From Candidatus Goldiibacteriota bacterium (GTDB lineage: Bacteria > Oederibacteriota > PGYV01): DNA of 36,304 bases. Both the position numbers and the translations under genes were made by a program. Under the pieces are notes generated by a model. The model was not told the DNA's origin and made no database searches. It was given only the letters and a program-made list of their open reading frames with translations. The stretch lies in contig JAFGWA010000025.1 in assembly GCA_016937715.1 (NCBI GenBank), positions 1 to 36,304 of the forward strand, given 5' to 3'. Position 1 is the first letter of the stretch; every line of letters begins with the position of its first letter. Below, piece by piece: positions 5,983 through 36,304 of this stretch.

Positions 5983-6843
5983 ATGGATTACGAAGCAATA
6001 AAAAACGGGATTGATATAAGAGGCAAGGGGACAAATAATATTGTGGTGGTAAAGCCCGCCATTTATTCCGTATATGAAATGAATATATTAAGAAGTATAG
6101 AATCGTATCTGATTGAAACTGAAAAAAATCTTGTGGTGTATACCGCAAAAAACCAAAATGAAGTGGCTAAATCGCTTATGATGGATATTGCGGAAGAAAA
6201 AAAAGCTGACGGGGTTATTACGATAAATGTAAAGCCTGATGCCGGGCTTGTGGACGCGTATAAAAGGTTTGATCTTCCGCTGGTGATGATAGACGGCGGC
6301 ATAATGGGCGGGGTGAACTGCATAAATATTGATGATTTTCAAAGCGGTTATAAAGCGGCGGAGTATCTTATAAAAAAAGGAAGGCGCAGGATAGTGGTAA
6401 CCGCGGGCGACCCGCGTTATGGTTATTCGCAGGATGAAAGAATTAAAGGGTGCAGAAAAGCGTTTTATGATTTCGGTATCCCTGAATCGCGTTTTGAAAT
6501 TCTGGATTTGTTCCTGTACTCCAGGGAAGACGGGCTGTCCGCTTTTACGGATGTAATGAACTTCAGGCCCGACGCTGTTTTCTGCGCCAATGGCGACTAT
6601 TTTGCGTCAGGGCTTTTAGAACAGGCAAAGGAAAATGGTTTTGAAGTGCCTGAGAAAATCGCGGTAATAGGCCACGATGACACAGACCTTGCGGAAACAA
6701 TGAAAATAACAACAATGAGGCAGCCCGCTTCCAGTATGGGGGAAAAGGCGATGGAAGTTCTGTTTGAAAATCTATCCGGCAAAAACACCGATCCTGTTAA
6801 TATAGTCTATCAGACGGAACTGGTGGAAAGGGGAACGGCATAG
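5983..6843 (+). CDS. LacI/GalR-type sugar-sensor domain lacking the DNA-binding domain
   Basis: The 286-residue product aligns with the effector-binding core of LacI-family regulators. It contains 'ADGVITINV', 'LPLVMIDGG', 'VNCINIDDFQSGYKAAEYLI', 'GRRRIVVTAGD', 'RIKGCRKAF', 'PDAVFCANGDYFASGLLEQA' and 'EKIAVIGHDDTDLAE...TTMRQPASSMGEKAMEVLF'. LacI proteins are usually about 330-345 residues and begin with a 50-residue helix-turn-helix plus hinge. Here about 16 residues precede the first core strand. The 138 bases upstream hold a promoter and ribosome site rather than a broken HTH, so the truncation looks stable. There is no signal peptide, so it is not a secreted binding protein. It lies just upstream of a family 3 glycosidase, which suggests sugar sensing; how it signals is unclear. 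Confidence 0.85.
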   Translation: MDYEAIKNGIDIRGKGTNNIVVVKPAIYSVYEMNILRSIESYLIETEKNLVVYTAKNQNEVAKSLMMDIAEEKKADGVITINVKPDAGLVDAYKRFDLPLVMIDGGIMGGVNCINIDDFQSGYKAAEYLIKKGRRRIVVTAGDPRYGYSQDERIKGCRKAFYDFGIPESRFEILDLFLYSREDGLSAFTDVMNFRPDAVFCANGDYFASGLLEQAKENGFEVPEKIAVIGHDDTDLAETMKITTMRQPASSMGEKAMEVLFENLSGKNTDPVNIVYQTELVERGTA

Positions 6844-7323: not shown

Positions 7324-9684
7324 ATGGTTTCTGAAAAATATCTTGATAATAATTTATCATTTGAAGAGCGGGCGGATGATTTGATATCGCGCATGACGCG
7401 CGCCGAAAAATTATCCCAGCTTTTTCATGAATCTCCGGCTATTCCGCGTCTGGGAATAAAAAAATATAACTGGTGGAATGAATGCCTTCACGGTGTGGCG
7501 CGCGCGGGTATTGCCACGGTTTTCCCGCAGGCAATCGGCCTTGCCGCCATGTTTGATAAAAAACAGATGCATACAATCGCGTCCGCGATTTCTGATGAGG
7601 CGCGCGCTAAATATCATGATGCGTTAACCGAAGACGGAAGTGAACAGTATTTTGGGCTTACATTCTGGTCGCCCAATATAAATATTTTCCGTGACCCAAG
7701 ATGGGGGCGCGGGCAGGAGACTTATGGCGAATGCCCGTATTTAACCGCACGCCTTGGCGTGCAGTTTGTCCGCGGGCTGCAGGGGAATGATAAAAAATAC
7801 TTAAAGACAGCAGCGTGCGCAAAACATTTTGCGGCGCACAGCGGGCCGGAAAATCTGCGGCACGGTTTTAACGCCGTTGTCTCTTTAAAGGACTTATATG
7901 AAACTTATCTTCCGGCGTTTGAAGCCCTTGTAAAAGAAGCGGCGGTGGAAAGCGTAATGGCCGCGTATAACAGGTTAAACGGGGAAGCGTGCTGTGCGGG
8001 TAAAATATTATTAACAGATATACTGCGCGATAAGTGGGGGTTTAAAGGGTATGTGGTATCGGACTGCGAAGCCATAGATGACATTTATAAATTTCATAAA
8101 CTGGCGGATAACCTTGAACAGGCGCTGTCAATGGCGATAGAAAACGGCTGTGATTTAAACTGCTGCAATGAAATATGCACGTCCGCGAAACAGGGGGTAA
8201 TAAAAGCCGACGCGCAGAATATGATAAAAGAAGAATGGGTTAACCGTAATTTAAAACGGCTGCTTATAACACGGTTTAAACTGGGAATGTTTGACGCGCC
8301 TAATCTGGTGCCATATACAAATATTTCCGCGGATATAATTGACTGCAAAAAACACCGTGCTATGGTATTAAAGGCGGCGCAGGATTCGGTAGTGCTGCTT
8401 GCAAATAACGGTGTGCTTCCGCTTAATAAAAAGAAGATAAAAACTGTTGCTGTCATAGGGCCTAACGCGGATGATATGGAAGTTTTGCTTGGTAATTACA
8501 GCGGAACACCTTCGGCTCCTAAAACAGTGCTTAAAGGTTTTGCGGAGTTAAAGGGCGTTAAAGTGATTTATACAAAAGGGTGTGAGTTAACCGGAACTGA
8601 TAAAAAAGATTTTTCAGAAGCGGTTAAATGCGCCGAAAAAGCAGACGCAGTAATACTGTGCCTTGGATTATCTCCTAAAATAGAAGGGGAAGAGTGCGAT
8701 ACAAACGGGTATGAAAGGTCAAATCTTGGGCTTCCCGGCGTTCAGCAGCAGCTTATAAAACAGATTAAAAAATCAGGCAAACCTGTAATAGTTGTACTGC
8801 TCTCGGGCGGCGCCGTATCTTTAAGCCCGGACAGCGCGGACGCCATACTTCAGGCGTGGTATCCGGGGCAGGCAGGCGGCGCGGCAATTGCGGATATTAT
8901 TTTTGGCGCTGTTAACCCGTCGGGTAAATTACCTGTGACGGTTTATAAAAACGCAAAACAGCTTCCGGCGTTTGAAAATTATGACATGAAAGGCAGAACC
9001 TACAGATATTTTAAGGGCACTCCGTTATATCCGTTTGGACACGGACTGTCATACACAAAATTCAAATACACGGATTTAAAGATAAAGCGTTCGGCAGGCA
9101 AGTATAATTTATCGGTAACGGTAAAAAATACCGGCAGGGTAAAAGGCGCGGAAGTTGTACAGGTTTATATCGCGCCGCCGGGAGCCGGTAAAACAGCACC
9201 CATAAAACAGCTTGCGGGTTTTGAAAAAGTTGAACTTGCGCCGGGGCAGAAAAAAACTGTCAGATTTATTATCTCTTCAGAACAGATGCGGATAATAAAT
9301 GAAAAAGGGGAAAGAGAAACGGTTTATGGGGATTTTACATTTTGGGTTGGCGGAACACAGCCCGGTTATGAAAAGATGAATCCCGGAACGCAGGTATTAA
9401 GAAAAAAAATAGTAGTAAAAAAGCCGATTTCAGGCAGGCCGCTTGTATGGTCTGTTTATATTCTTAAGTGCGCGGATGGTACGCTTTACACGGGGATAAC
9501 AAAGGATATTAAGCACAGGATTAAGACTCATAACAGCGGGAAAGGCGCCCAATATACCAAAGTTCACCGTCCTGTAAAGCTTGTACATTTAGAAACAGGG
9601 TATGACGTGGGGAGCGCAATGCGCAGGGAAAAAGCGATAAAAACCCTTACAAGAGAAGAAAAAATAAAACTGTTCCACAAGTAA
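7324..9684 (+). CDS. Family 3 glycoside hydrolase fused to a C-terminal GIY-YIG domain
   Basis: Residues 1 to about 700 form a complete GH3 enzyme of the beta-glucosidase/beta-xylosidase type. 'WWNECLHGVARAG', 'FWSPNINIFRDPRWGRGQET' and 'KHFAAHSGPE' build the TIM barrel, and the nucleophile is Asp247 in 'VVSDCEAIDD'. The second alpha/beta domain and an Fn3-like domain ('GAEVVQVYIAPPG') follow. It should release terminal sugars from oligosaccharides. There is no signal peptide, so it should act in the cytoplasm. Residues 709-786 are a UPF0213-like GIY-YIG nuclease domain. They have Tyr712 and Tyr722 ('SVYILKC', 'LYTGIT'), Arg732, 'HNSGKGAQYTK', and Glu769 in 'MRREKAIK'. No stop codon and no in-frame ATG, GTG or TTG lies at the junction, so the two are one reading frame. 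AAAGGCGG precedes the ATG. Confidence 0.92.
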   Translation: MVSEKYLDNNLSFEERADDLISRMTRAEKLSQLFHESPAIPRLGIKKYNWWNECLHGVARAGIATVFPQAIGLAAMFDKKQMHTIASAISDEARAKYHDALTEDGSEQYFGLTFWSPNINIFRDPRWGRGQETYGECPYLTARLGVQFVRGLQGNDKKYLKTAACAKHFAAHSGPENLRHGFNAVVSLKDLYETYLPAFEALVKEAAVESVMAAYNRLNGEACCAGKILLTDILRDKWGFKGYVVSDCEAIDDIYKFHKLADNLEQALSMAIENGCDLNCCNEICTSAKQGVIKADAQNMIKEEWVNRNLKRLLITRFKLGMFDAPNLVPYTNISADIIDCKKHRAMVLKAAQDSVVLLANNGVLPLNKKKIKTVAVIGPNADDMEVLLGNYSGTPSAPKTVLKGFAELKGVKVIYTKGCELTGTDKKDFSEAVKCAEKADAVILCLGLSPKIEGEECDTNGYERSNLGLPGVQQQLIKQIKKSGKPVIVVLLSGGAVSLSPDSADAILQAWYPGQAGGAAIADIIFGAVNPSGKLPVTVYKNAKQLPAFENYDMKGRTYRYFKGTPLYPFGHGLSYTKFKYTDLKIKRSAGKYNLSVTVKNTGRVKGAEVVQVYIAPPGAGKTAPIKQLAGFEKVELAPGQKKTVRFIISSEQMRIINEKGERETVYGDFTFWVGGTQPGYEKMNPGTQVLRKKIVVKKPISGRPLVWSVYILKCADGTLYTGITKDIKHRIKTHNSGKGAQYTKVHRPVKLVHLETGYDVGSAMRREKAIKTLTREEKIKLFHK

Positions 9685-13223: not shown

Positions 13224-13252
13224 TTGACATGTGGTACGTTTTATGGTACGCT
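13224..13252 (+). promoter_or_regulatory. Promoter and likely operator of the toxin-antitoxin pair
   Basis: A perfect TTGACA -35 (13224-13229) is followed after 17 bases by TACGCT as the -10 (13247-13252). Two direct copies of TGGTACG (13232-13238 and 13244-13250), 12 bases apart, lie within the spacer and over the -10. YefM/Phd antitoxins commonly repress their own promoter at short GTAC-containing sites, so these copies are a plausible operator. Confidence 0.55.
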
Positions 13253-13270
13253 TTTATTGAGGTGATAAAA

Positions 13271-13513
13271 ATGACAACTATAACGGCAAGTAAAGCGAGA
13301 GCGAATTTGTTTCAACTTCTTGACGGTACCGCGCTGTCCCATGAACCTGTTCAAATAACGGGGAAAAGGAACGCAGCTGTGCTTATTTCACAAGAGGATT
13401 GGTCTGCAATTCAGGAGACTATGTTTTTACTTTCAATCCCAGGAATGAGAGAGTCGATAATAAAGGGAATGAAGACGCCTGTGACGAAATGCTCGAAGAG
13501 ACTTAAGTGGTAA
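13271..13513 (+). CDS. YefM/Phd-family antitoxin
   Basis: The product has 80 residues. The N-terminal domain 'TITASKARANLFQLLD...EPVQITGKRNAAVLISQEDW' is the Phd/YefM DNA-binding and dimerisation fold. The tail 'LLSIPGMRESIIKGMKTP' is typical of YefM partners of YoeB toxins and should bind the toxin. It is expected to neutralise the toxin and, with it, repress the operon. GAGGTG precedes the ATG at 13271; an in-frame start at 13229 would fall inside the promoter. The toxin gene overlaps its end by seven bases. Confidence 0.9.
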   Translation: MTTITASKARANLFQLLDGTALSHEPVQITGKRNAAVLISQEDWSAIQETMFLLSIPGMRESIIKGMKTPVTKCSKRLKW

Positions 13514-13773
13514 AGTGGGCTGTTGTTTATACAAAACAGGCGCAGGCAGACGCAAAGAAAGCATCAGCCACTGGTTTAAAAAATAAAATATTGAAACTTC
13601 TAGAGATAATCGAGATTAATCCTTTTCAGAATCCGCCTCCTTTTGAAAAGTTAAAAGGCGATCTTGACGGCGCTTATTCCCGCAGGATAAACATTCAGCA
13701 TAGGCTTGTATATCAGGTAATTAAAGAGAGTAGGACGATAAAAGTCCTGCGTATGTGGACGCATTACGAGTAA
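13507..13773 (+). CDS. YoeB/Txe-family mRNA interferase toxin
   Basis: The 88-residue protein belongs to the RelE-fold YoeB group, which cleaves mRNA in the ribosomal A site. Family active-site positions can be placed at Glu47 ('FEKLKGDL'), Arg66 ('QHRLVY'), His86 and Tyr87 ('RMWTHYE' at the C terminus), so the toxin looks intact. The '[15 protein letters not shown]' block is the strongest signature. The GTG at 13507 overlaps the antitoxin stop, the usual coupled arrangement. An assignment to a neighbouring RelE-fold subgroup is possible. Confidence 0.9.
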
Positions 13774-22652: not shown

Positions 22653-22846
22653 GAGGGACGGATGCACAGAGGGACAGAGGGACGGAAGGTTGGTTTGGAA
22701 CTGGCAGCCGCGGGTCTTTAACCCGCGGCAGTTGAATGGTTTGTTTTAGGTATTGTAAAAGCAAGTTTACGAGTGGAATTATCAGCGCGAAGGATTGGAA
22801 TGAAGGTTTTTCCGACCATCCGTCCCTCCGTGCATCTGTCCCTCGG
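22653..22846 (+). repeat. Octamer-array element E2 between pyrK and pyrD
   Basis: The left arm starts five bases after the pyrK stop with GAGGGACG, GATGCACA, GAGGGACA, GAGGGACG and GAAGGTTG in unbroken 8-base register. The right arm (22812-22843) has CCGACCAT, CCGTCCCT, CCGTGCAT and CTGTCCCT, the inverted counterpart. The 120-base interior holds a CTGGCAG-type hairpin (22701-22736) and no gene. It splits an operon whose two flanking products form one complex. Confidence 0.88.
22701..22736 (+). repeat. Dispersed hairpin repeat, copy in E2
   Basis: CTGGCAG, then a perfect hairpin with arms GCCGCGGGT and ACCCGCGGC (22707-22729), then AGTTGAA. The flanks match the copies at 26602, 26661 and 35695; the loop is CTTTA. 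No T-tract follows, so it is not an obvious terminator. Confidence 0.75.
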
Positions 22847-26044: not shown

Positions 26045-26578
26045 ATGAGAAAAAAAATAAAATACTGCCCATATTGTTCCTCGCGTTTTGAAGAAAAAAA
26101 AGAACACGGGTTTAAACGCCATTACTGCCCGAAGTGCGGGGATTTTTTCTATGACAATCCCCTTGTAGGCACGGCGGTTGTTGTTATTAAGGATAATAAA
26201 TTATTACTTATAAAAAGAAATATACATCCCGGCCGCGGTATGTGGGCGCTTCCGGGCGGTTTCGCGGAACAGGGCGAAACCGTGCAGGCGGCGGGAAAAA
26301 GGGAACTGTTTGAAGAGACAGGATTAAAAGCAAAAAAAGCTGAAATAGTAAGCGTGCTTACAGAAAACTCGCTTATGTACGGTACTGTCATAGTACCGGT
26401 TATAAAAGTTGAAGGGTTTTCCGGTAAATTAAAACCGGGAAAAGATGAACTTGAAGCAAAGTTTTTTGATATCAATAAACTGCCCTTTCTGGCGTTTACC
26501 AGCCACAGGAAGGCTGTACGGAAACTGAAGAAGGACAGAGGGACGGATGCACAGAGGGACAGAGGGACGGAAGGTTAA
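26045..26578 (+). CDS. Nudix hydrolase with N-terminal zinc ribbon, tail extended by repeat
   Basis: Residues 1-30 have two Cys pairs ('YCPYC' and 'YCPKC') forming a zinc ribbon, as in NudC-like and ADP-ribose pyrophosphatase-like proteins. The Nudix box follows, with 'GGFAEQGETVQAAGKRELFEETGL' key residues in the correct spacing (Gly, Glu, REL-EE-G). It should cleave a nucleoside diphosphate linked to another group; the substrate is unknown. About the last 14 residues (from DRGTDAQRDRGTEG) are the translation of an octamer array, so the ancestral protein probably ended near 'AVRKLKK'. The start is 12 bases after tyrS with a CCGGAG ribosome site. Confidence 0.9.
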   Translation: MRKKIKYCPYCSSRFEEKKEHGFKRHYCPKCGDFFYDNPLVGTAVVVIKDNKLLLIKRNIHPGRGMWALPGGFAEQGETVQAAGKRELFEETGLKAKKAEIVSVLTENSLMYGTVIVPVIKVEGFSGKLKPGKDELEAKFFDINKLPFLAFTSHRKAVRKLKKDRGTDAQRDRGTEG

Positions 26579-26601
26579 AAGGAAATAAGGCCGGTTTAGA
26601 A

Positions 26602-26636
26602 CTGGTAGGCGCACCCTTTTAGGGTGCGGCAGTTGA
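26602..26636 (+). repeat. Dispersed hairpin repeat, first copy in E3
   Basis: CTGGTAG is followed by hairpin GCACCCT/AGGGTGC (26611-26627) and GGCAGTTGAA. The flanks match the copies at 22701 and 35695, but the stem is a different sequence that still pairs perfectly. Confidence 0.75.
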
Positions 26637-26660
26637 AGTTGTATTGTTTTAATTTGTGTT

Positions 26661-28189: not shown

Positions 28190-28314
28190 CTGACAAGTTT
28201 TAAGTTACAGCTTACAAGTTGAAACCTGTCAGTTGTCAGTTGTAAGTTGTAACCTGTAACTTGTAACCTGTAACTTGCAACCTGTAACTTGCAACCTGTA
28301 ACTTGTAACTTGTT
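28189..28314 (+). repeat. Heptamer array E6, 18 units in register
   Basis: Eighteen consecutive 7-base units start in the EndoQ stop codon and run without an indel. The first units (ACTGACA, AGTTTTA, AGTTACA, GCTTACA, AGTTGAA) give way to alternating ACCTGTA and ACTTGTA/ACTTGCA. The left part contains ACAAGTT, the reverse complement of AACTTGT in the right part, so the two halves can fold on each other. There is no gene in the middle. The next gene starts 17 bases downstream. Confidence 0.88.
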
Positions 28315-28331
28315 AAAATGGAGGAACTATT

Positions 28332-32774: not shown

Positions 32775-33348
32775 GCAGAAACAGATAAAATACGCTTTAA
32801 AATTTAAGCGCGGCGGTAATATTCTTGAACTTGGAAGCGGTAAAGGCGAATTTTTGGATTGCTGTAAAGATGCCGGTGTTAAGGTAACGGGTGTGGATCA
32901 TTACGCCGATAAATCGGACAGAAGGATAATTAAAAGCGACGCGCGTGCTTTTTTAAAGAAGGCAAAAAAGAACTCTTATGACGGCATTTATGCAAGGCAT
33001 TTTGTGGAACACTTTGAGGCTGATGGCCTTATAAATATTTTTAAGATGGCAGAAAACGTTTTAAAAAAAGACGGGGTATTTTTAATGATATTTCCCAATT
33101 TAAGAAATATTCATGTTGCAACCTATGAATTCTGGAGCGACCCCACGCACGCAAGGCCGTACACCGGCGAAGCGCTGGCTGTCCTTTTGGATAAGGCCGG
33201 TTTTAAAATTAAAGAGCACGGCCCTGATGCTGACAGCTGGGATAATTCGCCGTTTAAAAATATTATCAGGGGGTTAAGGGCGTTTTTAAGCGGGGTAAGG
33301 ACAGCTCCCCCGGATTATTATATATACGCGGTTAAAAAGAAATCCTGA
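32764..33348 (+). CDS. SAM-dependent methyltransferase (class I)
   Basis: The 194-residue protein has motif I 'GNILELGSGKGEFLDCCKDA', the acidic 'VTGVDHYAD' end of strand 2, 'YDGIYARHFVEHFEADGL' and 'VLKKDGVFLMIFPN'. This is the UbiE/Methyltransf_11-like fold, common in polysaccharide clusters where it methylates sugars or glycan ends. The ATG at 32764 is preceded by AAAGGAGA; a TTG one codon earlier is less likely. It overlaps the glycosyltransferase by 11 bases, so it belongs to the same transcript. Confidence 0.9.
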   Translation: MDNKQKQIKYALKFKRGGNILELGSGKGEFLDCCKDAGVKVTGVDHYADKSDRRIIKSDARAFLKKAKKNSYDGIYARHFVEHFEADGLINIFKMAENVLKKDGVFLMIFPNLRNIHVATYEFWSDPTHARPYTGEALAVLLDKAGFKIKEHGPDADSWDNSPFKNIIRGLRAFLSGVRTAPPDYYIYAVKKKS

Positions 33349-33427
33349 TTTTAATATAATCTTACGGTATTCAATAATTAAGAAATTATGATATAATCTT
33401 TTAAACGTTATAACAGCGGGGGTTATT

Positions 33428-34423
33428 TTGCTTCACGAGGCAAGGTATTACCAGAAGGTACCGGTATTAAAGACAAGGTGCGTGCTTTGCCCGCACAGAT
33501 GCCTTATTTCCAAGGGAAAGACGGGTATCTGCGGGGTAAGGTCAAACATAGACGGGGTGTTGTACTCCAAAATTTACGGGGAAGTCACATCTTATTCGGA
33601 TGATCCTGTTGAAAAGAAACCTTTATATCACTTTCTGCCCGGAAAAAACATATTCTCAATCGGCTCGTGGGGATGCAACTTTAAGTGCACTTTCTGCCAG
33701 AACTGGTCAATTTCGCAGCGCAGGGATATTGATACGGAACACTTTGAAAAAGAAGATATTGTCAATATCGCTGTCAGCCATAATTCTGCGGGCATAGCGT
33801 ACACATATAATGAACCTTCCATATGGTATGAATTTGTGTATGACACCGCCGTGCACGCGCGGGAAAAAGGGTTAAAAAATGTTCTTGTAACAAACGGGTT
33901 TATAAGCGAAGAACCGCTTAAAGAATTGCTGCCGCATATTGATGCCATGAATGTGGACCTGAAAGCGGGGTCAGAGATGTTTTACAGGGAAGTGTGCGGC
34001 GGGCAGATAGAACCGGTTATGAGAACCATAAAAATGGCATATGAAGCGGGCGTTCACGTGGAATTAACCACGCTGGTTATTCCCACGTTAAATGACAGGG
34101 ATGATATTGACCAGATTGTGGAATGGGTGGCGTCTGTATCCCCGGAAATCCCGATTCATTTCTCGCGATATTATCCGCAGTATAAAATGGATATTGACCC
34201 GACTTCAATTGAATTGCTTCAGGAAGTATACAATAAGGCGAAACAGAAACTAAAGCACGTTTATCTTGGAAATGTTCCAAAAGACGCGGGCGGCTGCGAC
34301 ACGTTCTGCGCCAACTGCGGCGAAAAACTTATTGAACGAGATATGTATGATGTAAAAATATTAAAACTGACCCCCGAAGGCAATTGCGGAAAATGCGGAA
34401 CGAGGCTTAAGGGAGTGTTTTAG
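33428..34423 (+). CDS. AmmeMemoRadiSam-type radical SAM enzyme
   Basis: The 331-residue protein has the family hallmarks: N-terminal Cys cluster 'CVLCPHRC' and 'GICGVR' (Cys18, 21, 25, 35), then the radical SAM motif Cys83-x3-Cys87-x2-Cys90 in 'SWGCNFKCTFCQNW'. 'AYTYNEPSIWYEF', 'NVLVTNGFI' and 'DAMNVDLKAG' follow. The family is widespread in archaea and bacteria next to AMMECR1 and Memo-like genes, but neither is seen here. The C-terminal 45 residues add a zinc-ribbon-like tail ('CANCGEKL', then 'CGKCGTRL'). TTG start with a Gly-rich AGCGGGGG site; TATAAT at 33392-33397 is a possible -10. Confidence 0.93.
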   Translation: MLHEARYYQKVPVLKTRCVLCPHRCLISKGKTGICGVRSNIDGVLYSKIYGEVTSYSDDPVEKKPLYHFLPGKNIFSIGSWGCNFKCTFCQNWSISQRRDIDTEHFEKEDIVNIAVSHNSAGIAYTYNEPSIWYEFVYDTAVHAREKGLKNVLVTNGFISEEPLKELLPHIDAMNVDLKAGSEMFYREVCGGQIEPVMRTIKMAYEAGVHVELTTLVIPTLNDRDDIDQIVEWVASVSPEIPIHFSRYYPQYKMDIDPTSIELLQEVYNKAKQKLKHVYLGNVPKDAGGCDTFCANCGEKLIERDMYDVKILKLTPEGNCGKCGTRLKGVF

Positions 34424-34949
34424 AGGCTTGGATGCTTAGACGCTTAGATGCTTGGTGAAAACAGCAAAATATAACAGTAAAACATAGCAGAAAAAACATT
34501 GAGGGGTGTTTTTATGAATATGTATAAGGAATTGTATGTTTGGAAGGAAAGTGTTGAATTGATAAAAAATGTATATAAGAAGGCTGCTGGTTTGCCTAAA
34601 AGTGAAGAGTTTAACATGAAACAGCAGCTGAAAAGATCGGTGGTTTCAGTTGCGTTAAACATAGCAGAAGGTAAAAACAGGAGGTCTTCAAAAGAATTTG
34701 CCTCTTTTCTTACGGTATCAGTCGCATCTTTGGCCGAAGTTGATTCAGTTTTGTGTATATGCGAAGAACTTGAAATGGTCAAATGTGATATGACATTACA
34801 TGAACAGATTGAGGTTTTAGGAAGACGTATTAATGCGTTGAAAAACAAAATCTGCAGGAGTATTTAATTTGAAAAAAAGTATTATCGAAGCATCCGGATG
34901 TGGTATCAACCAAGCATCCAAGCATCTAAGCATCCAAGCATCCGGTTAT
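34423..34949 (+). mobile_element. Octamer-array element E5 carrying a four-helix-bundle gene
   Basis: The left arm (34423-34454) overlaps the last base of the upstream stop codon and reads GAGGCTTG, GATGCTTA, GACGCTTA, GATGCTTG. The right arm (34886-34949) reads CGAAGCAT, CCGGATGT, GGTATCAA, then CCAAGCAT twice, CTAAGCAT, CCAAGCAT and CCGGTTAT, the inverted counterpart in perfect register. One gene (34514-34867) fills the interior. The octamers differ from those of E1-E4 but share the pattern GA-x-G. Calling it mobile is my inference from the inverted arms and repeated architecture; no insertion-site duplication was checked. Confidence 0.65.
34514..34867 (+). CDS. Four-helix-bundle protein, 23S rRNA intervening-sequence family
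   Basis: The 117-residue protein belongs to TIGR02436 (S23/IVSP), related to the Avd accessory protein of diversity-generating retroelements. The core 'KQQLKRSVVSVALNIAEGKN' followed by 'RRSSKEFASFLTVSVASLAEVDSVL' is unmistakable; it starts with 'MYKELYVWKESVELIKNVY'. Avd forms a positively charged pentameric barrel that binds RNA and a reverse transcriptase; whether this paralogue does so is unknown. No reverse transcriptase or 23S rRNA is in the window. I chose the ATG at 34514 because GAGGGGTG lies upstream. Octamer arrays flank the gene on both sides. Confidence 0.93.
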   Translation: MNMYKELYVWKESVELIKNVYKKAAGLPKSEEFNMKQQLKRSVVSVALNIAEGKNRRSSKEFASFLTVSVASLAEVDSVLCICEELEMVKCDMTLHEQIEVLGRRINALKNKICRSI

Positions 34950-34952
34950 TAA

Positions 34953-35534
34953 ATGCAAAACTTAATTCTTGCTTCAACATCCCCAAGGCGGAAAGACATA
35001 CTAAAACAGTTTGGCATTAAGTTTAAGGTAATGGCGCCTGATGCCGATGAGGATGCAATAAAAAAATCATTGAAAACAGACAACCCTTACGAGATTGCAA
35101 ATATCATAGCTTACGAAAAAGCAAAGTCTGTCCTGTCTAAAGTTAAGAAGGGGATTATACTGGGTTCCGATACTATTGTGGTGCTTAAAGGCGAGATTCT
35201 GGGCAAGCCGCGGGATAAAAAGGACGCCATAAGGATACTGTCAAAGCTAAGTTCAAATACGCACTCTGTTATAACTTCAATCGCGTTAATTGACGCGCAG
35301 ACAGGCAAATCAGTCGTAACATACGATGAATCAAGGATTTATTTTAAAAAGATGAGCCCGACTGCGGTTAGAAAGTATATAGATGAAAACCACGTGCTGG
35401 ATAAGGCAGGGGCGTATGCAATACAGGAAAACTCCGACCCGTTTGTAAGGAAGTTCACGGGCAGCTATTATAATATCGTGGGCCTGCCGATAGAGAAACT
35501 GATGAAAACACTTAAGATGTGGAGCCAAATTTAG
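34953..35534 (+). CDS. maf: Maf-family nucleotide pyrophosphatase
   Basis: Maf proteins hydrolyse (d)NTPs, mostly pyrimidine or modified nucleotides, to monophosphates, and affect septum formation. The 193-residue product starts with 'ILASTSPRRKDIL' and has 'ILGSDTIVVLKGEILGKPRD', 'SNTHSVITSIAL' and 'GAYAIQENSDPFVRKFTGSYYNIVGLP', all core motifs. The Ser/Thr-x-Ser-Pro-Arg-Arg signature is at residues 8-13. The ATG lies only three bases after the last octamer of element E5, and no Shine-Dalgarno site is visible, so the element may have replaced the native leader. Confidence 0.95.
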   Translation: MQNLILASTSPRRKDILKQFGIKFKVMAPDADEDAIKKSLKTDNPYEIANIIAYEKAKSVLSKVKKGIILGSDTIVVLKGEILGKPRDKKDAIRILSKLSSNTHSVITSIALIDAQTGKSVVTYDESRIYFKKMSPTAVRKYIDENHVLDKAGAYAIQENSDPFVRKFTGSYYNIVGLPIEKLMKTLKMWSQI

Positions 35535-35694
35535 AAAAGCCGAGGGACGGATGCACGGAGGGACAGAGGGACGGAAGTATTAAGAACATGAGGGACGGAA
35601 GGTCGGATGCACGGAGGGACGGAAGTAGTGAAAAAACGAGGGACGGAAGTATTAAGAACATGAGGGACGGAAGTGAAATCGAACATCTTAAGTT

Positions 35695-35730
35695 CTGGTA
35701 GACGCGGGTCTTTAGCCCGCGGTAGTTGAA
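35695..35730 (+). repeat. Dispersed hairpin repeat, copy in E4
   Basis: CTGGTAGA is followed by stem CGCGGG/CCCGCG (35703-35721) and GGTAGTTGAA. It is nearly identical to the copies at 22701 and 26661. It lies between the left octamer arm and the 3' end of the reverse-strand gene; the remaining 50 bases hold nothing I recognise. Confidence 0.75.
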
Positions 35731-35779
35731 ATGGTCTTTAATGGTTAAATGAATAGGGGATAAAATTTACAGATAACCA

Positions 35780-36136
35780 TCAATTACATTTGGATGCGAG
35801 ACTTTTACGGAAAGAATTAATTTTTCTGCTTAGCACATCTAATTTATTCCGTAATTCATCATTTACTTTTATATAACCTAATTCTTCGGATAATGTCAAG
35901 ATTGCTTCCACTTCGGATATGGAGCCTGATGAGATTGAAAGAAAATGCAGGAAGTCTTTACCGGTTTTCCTGTTTTTTCCTTCGGCGATATTAAGTGATA
36001 CGGATACAACGGCCCGTTTTAATTGTTGTTTAAGGTTGTATTCTTCGGTTTTAGGAAGTAAGTCTGCCACTTTGTATATGTCTTTAACTAATACAATACT
36101 TTCACGCCAGATAATTAAATCTCTAAAAACATTCAT
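35780..36136 (-). CDS. Four-helix-bundle protein, 23S rRNA intervening-sequence family, second copy
   Basis: The 118-residue paralogue of the protein at 34514 is on the opposite strand. Shared features are the start 'MNVFRDLIIWRESIVLVKDIY' pattern, the core 'KQQLKRAVVSVSLNIAEGKN' and the 'ISEVEAIL...EELGYI' helix. The two copies are clearly homologous but not identical, so they are not a recent duplication. The ribosome site, GAGGGACAGAG just before the ATG, is itself an octamer of the repeat family. It is the only convincing reverse-strand gene in the window. The function is unknown; family members occur as insertions in 23S rRNA genes and as Avd in retroelements. Confidence 0.92.
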   Translation of the reverse strand: MNVFRDLIIWRESIVLVKDIYKVADLLPKTEEYNLKQQLKRAVVSVSLNIAEGKNRKTGKDFLHFLSISSGSISEVEAILTLSEELGYIKVNDELRNKLDVLSRKINSFRKSLASKCN

Positions 36137-36304
36137 CTCTGTCCCTCTATGTTTTATATGTTTTTTAAATCTTATTTTTGTTTTGTCTTAAGTCCCTTAC
36201 TTTCGTCCCTCTGTCCCTCGGGTTTAAAAACCTTCCGTCCCTCTGTGCATCCGACCCTCTGTCCCTTGGGTTTAAAAACCTTCCGTCCCTCTGTGCATCC
36301 GACC

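Follow-up and report, generated by a model that had tools for sequence, protein, structure and literature searches.

The 23S rRNA intervening-sequence protein (IVP) family consists of four-helix-bundle proteins encoded by small genes, and to our knowledge few "four helix bundle protein" annotations that lack a known function are as common as IVP/S23. Bacterial intergenic DNA also repeatedly contains short heptamer repeats for which there is no explanation. Among the closest described systems is the intervening sequence (IVS) in the 23S rRNA of Leptospira, Coxiella and Brucella, in which an S23p/IVP open reading frame (ORF) lies in an inverted-repeat stem loop. In Coxiella, the stem loop with the IVP ORF carries tandem GACAGAT heptamers where RNase III cuts, and mobility of 23S IVSs was proposed long ago (PMC4990558). 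Also comparable are REPIN/RAYT systems, in which a protein gene of extragenic residence is bracketed by a repeat and dispersed non-autonomous inverted pairs share the unit of the resident protein, and diversity-generating retroelements (DGRs), whose Avd is a homologous four-helix-bundle protein. Dispersed heptamers are described from Xanthomonas, where 70-75 convergent G-rich GGGAATC pairs lie mostly near stop codons (PMC4692102), from Nostoc (GGGGA(T/C)T and STRR) and from Beggiatoaceae (TAACTGA).

The window analyzed here is the whole stretch of 36,304 nucleotides from a Candidatus Goldiibacteriota genome (the home genome, G000). An earlier note on this DNA had claimed that two four-helix-bundle genes at its end (34423-36304) each sit between inverted octamer arrays, and this was confirmed. 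Both genes were assigned to PF05635/TIGR02436 by profile search (E 4e-26 and 7e-32), with PF05635 scores of 91.6 and 110.2 bits against a curated cut-off of 33.8 and TIGR02436 scores of 93 and 108.7 bits against a curated cut-off of 24. The arms of element 1 (34423-34456 with 34909-34942) are 91% complementary over 34 nt and those of element 2 (35556-35647 with 36210-36301) are 77% complementary over 92 nt; in both, the IVP ORF is enclosed by the inverted-repeat stem and the G-rich strand is directed inward. Tandem Repeats Finder reported period 8, along with multiples of 16, 24 and 48, at the arrays of both elements. The right array of element 2 is truncated, given that the contig ends within it. 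The note had also taken the opposite orientation of the two genes as an argument against a single copying event, which was unsound: because the inverted arms make the frame symmetric, orientation carries no information. At the orthologous maf locus of congener G001, maf is accompanied by an IVP gene that is flipped between GGCTGGGC arrays. Further arrays in the window enclose no IVP gene (Table 1); the three octamer pairs among them are of the same octamer families as the IVP elements, share their polarity and begin where the upstream gene ends or just inside it.

Table 1. Coordinates of array pairs and IVP genes in the window.
Feature	Start	End	Strand	Remarks
Orphan inverted octamer array pair	6844	7246	.	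Directly after stop codon of gene 5983-6843
Orphan inverted octamer array pair	22652	22841	.	Between pyrK-like and pyrD-like genes; same junction occupied in both congeners
Orphan inverted octamer array pair	26529	26903	.	Upstream NUDIX gene extends into array
Orphan heptamer hairpin	28190	28313	.	TTGTAAC/GTTACAA type; in congener G001, not in congener G002
Element 1 left octamer array	34420	34456	+	GATGCTTR-type; G-rich strand inward; begins at radical-SAM stop codon (gene end 34423)
IVP gene 1	34514	34867	+	PF05635/TIGR02436; in period-8 IVP clade
Element 1 right inverted octamer array	34884	34949	-	YAAGCATC; end 3 nt ahead of maf start codon
Element 2 left octamer array	35541	35677	+	GAGGGACR, 24- and 48-bp higher-order repeats; begins 7 nt past maf stop codon
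IVP gene 2	35780	36136	-	PF05635/TIGR02436; in period-8 IVP clade
Element 2 right inverted array	36139	36304	-	YGTCCCTC; cut by contig end

The window elements share with the 23S rRNA IVS an IVP ORF within an inverted-repeat stem loop. The IVS sits in rRNA, whereas the present cassettes lie between protein genes and have longer arrays; the neighbors in the window are a radical-SAM gene and maf, not 23S rRNA, and no Rfam match was obtained in 33000-36304. Unlike the IVS, the present cassettes also show dispersed orphan pairs, coupling of period to lineage and documented exchange, as described below. The RAYT protein is a Y1 transposase and the REPIN repeat is a REP palindrome, whereas here the protein is a four-helix bundle and the repeats are arrays of 6-10-nt units across the surveyed cassettes; the bracketed genes contained PF05635 only, with no Y1 (TnpA_REP) domain, and the Y1 genes of G000 are located on other contigs. 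The reverse transcriptase (RT) of DGRs, which the earlier note had suggested seeking in the home genome, was not found in G000 (no PF00078 match; genome 96% complete). With regard to DDE insertion sequences and MITEs, the sole coding content of the window cassettes is the PF05635 IVP, and no transposase gene, or TIR shared with one, was found. Given that the cassettes are not in rRNA and have no Y1 domain, no RT and no transposase, they were not filed as rRNA IVS, RAYT, DGR or insertion sequence/MITE. The dispersed heptamers of Xanthomonas, Nostoc and Beggiatoaceae are alike in unit size and in intergenic placement near stops, and the Xanthomonas pairs have the same polarity as the present cassettes; the texts on these heptamers describe repeats only, and no IVP link was found in them. 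The Coxiella IVS paper was the only one found on a link between IVPs and arrays, in a literature coverage that left out most subscription papers and preprints, so an earlier description is possible.

Two samples of IVP genes were collected. The first held 84 genes, drawn from the home phylum together with a handful of outgroups; the second held 80 genes from named genomes that spanned many bacterial phyla as well as Methanophagales archaea, and 79 of these genes were scored. The inverted score was the best local match between the 300 bp upstream of a gene and the reverse complement of the 300 bp downstream, and other ORFs from the same fetched stretches served as controls; statistics cover the searched loci and fetched stretches, with simple ORFs as gene calls. 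Scores ≥ 20 were obtained for 44% of the 84 IVP genes versus 1.1% of 442 control ORFs (p = 4e-19), and for 49% of the 79 IVP genes from named genomes versus 2.2% of controls (p = 7e-25). When coding sequence was masked, intergenic length was matched and both intergenic flanks were ≥ 60 nt, scores ≥ 16 were found for 54% of IVP genes versus 7.5% of controls (odds ratio 14, p = 1e-13). Matching inverted arms were present in 61% of 163 IVP genes and in about 5-7.5% of control genes. The earlier note had asked how many homologues have flanking arrays and how often unrelated genes do: most homologues do not lack them, and they are not equally common elsewhere (1.1-7.5% of controls versus 44-54% of IVPs). 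About 39% of IVP genes have no recognizable arms, and the conserved subfamily FENLxVYQKA... (G001, G002, G014 and G020) seems to be without them. Left and right arms taken from different loci matched in 2.1% of cases, and in 3.8% when both loci were in one genome, versus 61% for own pairs: each locus has a unit of its own, which both of its arms carry. The G-rich strand pointed inward at both ends in 89 of the 98 loci with non-zero skew (89:9, p = 1e-17). Bracketing of a gene by inverted arrays is strongly IVP-specific, and the survey points to a widespread minimal mobile element in many bacterial phyla and some archaea.

Array period goes with IVP lineage, not with genome. Period 7 is dominant, and periods 8, 9 and 10 are confined to particular IVP clades whose members come from different genomes; several periods may occur in a single genome (7, 9 and 10 in G021; 7, 8 and 10 in G035). 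On the IVP protein tree, a quick tree of few columns in which near-copies add to the clustering, period required 9 changes versus a mean of 22.6 after shuffling, and none of 200 shuffles was as low. The period-8 clade has ten members, including both window genes (SH-aLRT 99).

Orthologous junctions were compared in Flavobacterium, where an IVP gene with 9-mer arms follows a conserved gene ending in ...FEENWN in 27 close species whose junction could be read; at the same locus, L282 has a 94-bp junction without an IVP. Units at this junction are of a CAAAG or a CTAAG type, and the two arms are concordant (rho 0.92). The flanking-gene tree required 9 changes of unit type, with at least 7 imposed by the starred branches, and did no better than shuffles; the IVP protein tree required 1 (support 100/100). 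In the sister species L280 and L284, the flanks are 99.3% and 95.9% identical, while the cassettes are 69.6% identical and differ in unit type; identity breaks at the stop codon on one side and at the next ATG on the other. As read from these alignments, a whole cassette has been exchanged at one site, with the stop codon and the start codon as boundaries. L259 has a mixed-unit left array beside a pure right array, as would be expected from recombination within an array. At a second junction of the same sister species, G068 carries an IVP cassette and G125 a short inverted array that encloses no IVP. Within the home genus, the heptamer hairpin occupies the junction at 28190-28331 in both G000 and G001, and G002 has none there. 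No target-site duplication was noticed by eye at the G000/G002 and G068/G125 junctions, where the arrays abut coding sequence and would hide one. Divergence of the Flavobacterium IVP by codon position (0.21/0.11/0.40) indicates that the protein is under purifying selection. Mobility, which the earlier note had marked as inference, thus gained direct comparative support from the exchange of unit types, the L280/L284 cassette swap and the G068/G125 difference; the minimal mobile or templated element that it envisaged is supported to this extent, and the RT route is not supported, as G000 has no PF00078 match. Ordinary horizontal recombination over a short segment might account for the exchange, although its boundaries follow the cassette closely.

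Placement relative to neighboring genes was read for 91 array-bounded IVPs. In 63 the IVP is sense to both neighbors and in 5 antisense; in the 63 co-directional cases, the median distance was 3 nt between the upstream stop codon and the start of the left arm, and 8 nt between the end of the right arm and the next start. Contexts that recur, with gene names taken from inspection of the flanks, include rfbF-rfbG, sdhA-sdhB (L194 and L223), capsule genes and maf. IVP genes also occur on cyanobacterial plasmids, and none was found in phages among 50,697 records. On plasmid pANA02 of Anabaena sp. 90, an IVP gene bracketed by GGTGACA heptamers is situated between cas6 and cas4. The 23S rRNA IVP has been listed among CRISPR adaptation-module associations (PMC10910872), a listing for which cassettes such as that of pANA02 may account. 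Selection for sense-RNA pairing of the arms was considered as a candidate and rejected, as no excess of G-U-compatible mismatches was found.

The prevailing sense orientation would suit an RNA-processing or regulatory device, in which RNase III cuts the arm stem from the operon mRNA, the IVP binds its own and dispersed stems as a regulon, and spread is incidental. Long-range stems formed when both window elements were folded as RNA (z -5.0 and -11.5), and the heptamer-bearing Coxiella IVS stem, cut by RNase III (PMC4990558), argues in the same direction. Sense orientation may, however, reflect only the need for a host promoter, and arm mismatches compatible with pairing in the sense RNA (G-U) numbered 167 versus 200 A-C overall and 27 versus 54 in Flavobacterium. 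Such a device alone would also leave cassette exchange, the coupling of period to lineage and unit turnover between sister species unexplained, and we consider it unlikely.

Arrays are not exclusive to IVP genes, since in the home genome (2.59 Mb) they far outnumber them: G000 has 3 good IVP genes, and its octamer families are dispersed genome-wide, with 90 exact GAGGGACNGAGGGAC 15-mers (reversed control 0) and 36 GATGCTTNGATGCTT copies. Array families vary among congeners, with GCTGGGCNGCTGGGC matched 46 times in G001, 0 times in G000 and 2 times in G002. A strict array detector overlooked degenerate arrays, and a relaxed version was checked against shuffled controls. Across 1.5 Mb of fetched loci there were 143 inverted array pairs, and none in composition-shuffled sequence; an IVP lies within 80 of these pairs, and the other 63 are empty of one, a few of them adjoining IVP cassettes. 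These pairs are convergent in 124 cases and divergent in 19, and both arms have equal period in 141. Orphan pairs located ≥ 700 bp from any IVP gene (37 in total) were scored as matching when the arms of a fetched IVP of the same genome fitted better than 95% of draws from other genomes; 54% matched resident IVP arms at p ≤ 0.05. This share is a minimum, since most genomes contributed one of their several IVPs.

The surplus of arrays in G000, together with control genes that are bracketed now and then (2-4% at the stricter cut), could be read as a passive association, in which IVP genes ride in or tolerate intergenic repeats that are mobile or hypermutable independently of them. Coupling of period and unit to IVP lineage, the 14-fold enrichment over intergenic-matched controls and the match of orphan units to resident IVP arms all argue against this account, which we regard as distinctly improbable. 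An RT-dependent, DGR-related retroelement, with the IVP as Avd-like partner of a trans-acting RT and arrays written by templated slippage, would draw on the homologous folds of IVP and Avd (PMC10053308) and on lineage-specific unit length in tandem arrays, which would suit templated synthesis, but is very improbable given that the 96% complete home genome, with 3 IVPs and many arrays, has no PF00078 RT.

The data establish that array, gene and array form a discrete unit that can be exchanged, and that the class of array goes with the protein lineage. This unit is probably a horizontally exchanged mobile cassette whose arrays are recognized by its own IVP, with both the recognition and the mode of movement deduced from these patterns. 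In the cassette, an IVP gene read from the host operon promoter would be preceded by an inward array and followed by an inverted array built of the same unit, and the whole would fill the space from the upstream stop codon to the ribosome-binding site of the downstream gene. An IVP oligomer may bind the array units, with oligomer geometry setting the unit length. XCC0516 of X. campestris, known from a crystal structure (2gsc), belongs to the IVP family, and is cited in PMC10053308 as a homopentamer of five four-helix bundles; this membership and the homology to Avd make nucleic-acid binding by IVPs plausible. Together with host recombination, replication or RNA-processing enzymes, the IVP might then allow array-ended DNA to be copied or exchanged between array-bearing junctions, possibly by recombination between the arrays there. 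IVP-less pairs would be non-autonomous followers and landing sites, as REPINs are to RAYTs, and IVSs would represent this class of element after landing in rRNA; the Coxiella 23S rRNA IVS, by this comparison, looks like a special case of an array-bounded IVP cassette.

Against mobility stands the fact that the cassette encodes no transposase, recombinase or RT. G000 has no near-identical IVP paralogues, which implies that a cassette is seldom copied inside one genome, and the IVP is kept in nearly all close relatives tested at the Flavobacterium locus, which makes a stable host role possible. A bolder form of the mobile-cassette reading, which we put forward tentatively and as somewhat short of an even chance, is that insertion sequences and RAYT/REPIN are joined by a third type of minimal mobile element in prokaryotes. 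Here a non-enzymatic IVP of ~120 residues would recognize terminal arrays, serve as a ruler for a unit length of 7, 8, 9 or 10 nt depending on its lineage, use host enzymes to move its cassette from one operon junction to another and drive dispersed array-only followers. If true, this would account for heptamer repeats in bacteria and archaea, with the 23S rRNA IVS as a special case.

One caution follows for annotation: where IVP genes are listed close to CRISPR adaptation modules (PMC10910872), they may belong to cassettes that were inserted there and not to the CRISPR system. More generally, tying IVP proteins and heptamer repeats together gives both a testable role. The mobile cassette would offer a very small mobile unit of ~500 bp, without an enzyme of its own and with a protein-encoded repeat length, and a frame for the old puzzle of the 23S rRNA IVSs.

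In the congener G001 (locus L068, 7599-9000), inverted arrays enclose a segment carrying maf and the gene for a 23S rRNA intervening-sequence protein (IVP), and this segment is flipped relative to window 34423-36304, as expected for recombination between the arms.

The NUDIX gene at window 26045-26578 has lost its usual stop and its reading frame continues into an octamer array, ending ...KKDRGTDAQRDRGTEG*; gene ends are therefore open to array invasion. On the Anabaena plasmid pANA02 (L321, 1905-2000), the annotated start of cas4 precedes a heptamer array, so that array sequence lies within the annotated N-terminus.

REP-like palindromes of the GGTAGACGCGGGTCTTTAGCCCGCGGTAGTTG type were nested in several array elements of the window, including the element of IVP gene 2. 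Two Y1 transposase matches were found in the home genome, on contigs C65 and C106.

Nested REP-like palindromes in the window
Feature	Position
GGTAGACGCGGGTCTTTAGCCCGCGGTAGTTG-type palindrome	35692-35735
GGTAGACGCGGGTCTTTAGCCCGCGGTAGTTG-type palindrome	22700-22740
GGTAGACGCGGGTCTTTAGCCCGCGGTAGTTG-type palindrome	26600-26660

Elsewhere in the window, the ORF at 7324-9684 encodes a putative GH3-type glycosidase with a GIY-YIG-like stretch at its C-terminus (translation inspected by eye), and the small Phd/YefM-like and YoeB/Txe-like genes at 13229-13773 are, by inspection, probably a toxin-antitoxin module.

Outside the home phylum, genome G052 contained 19 PF05635 matches, many of them divergent pairs of partial-length genes (e.g., C7:104028- / 104402+). 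An IVP subfamily with the pattern FENLxVYQKA...FPRGNYYLxDQLNRA was recurrent, with flanking arrays not clearly seen (G001_C3_750, G002_C20_6287, G014_C175_9931, and G020_C78_97795), and may differ in its role.
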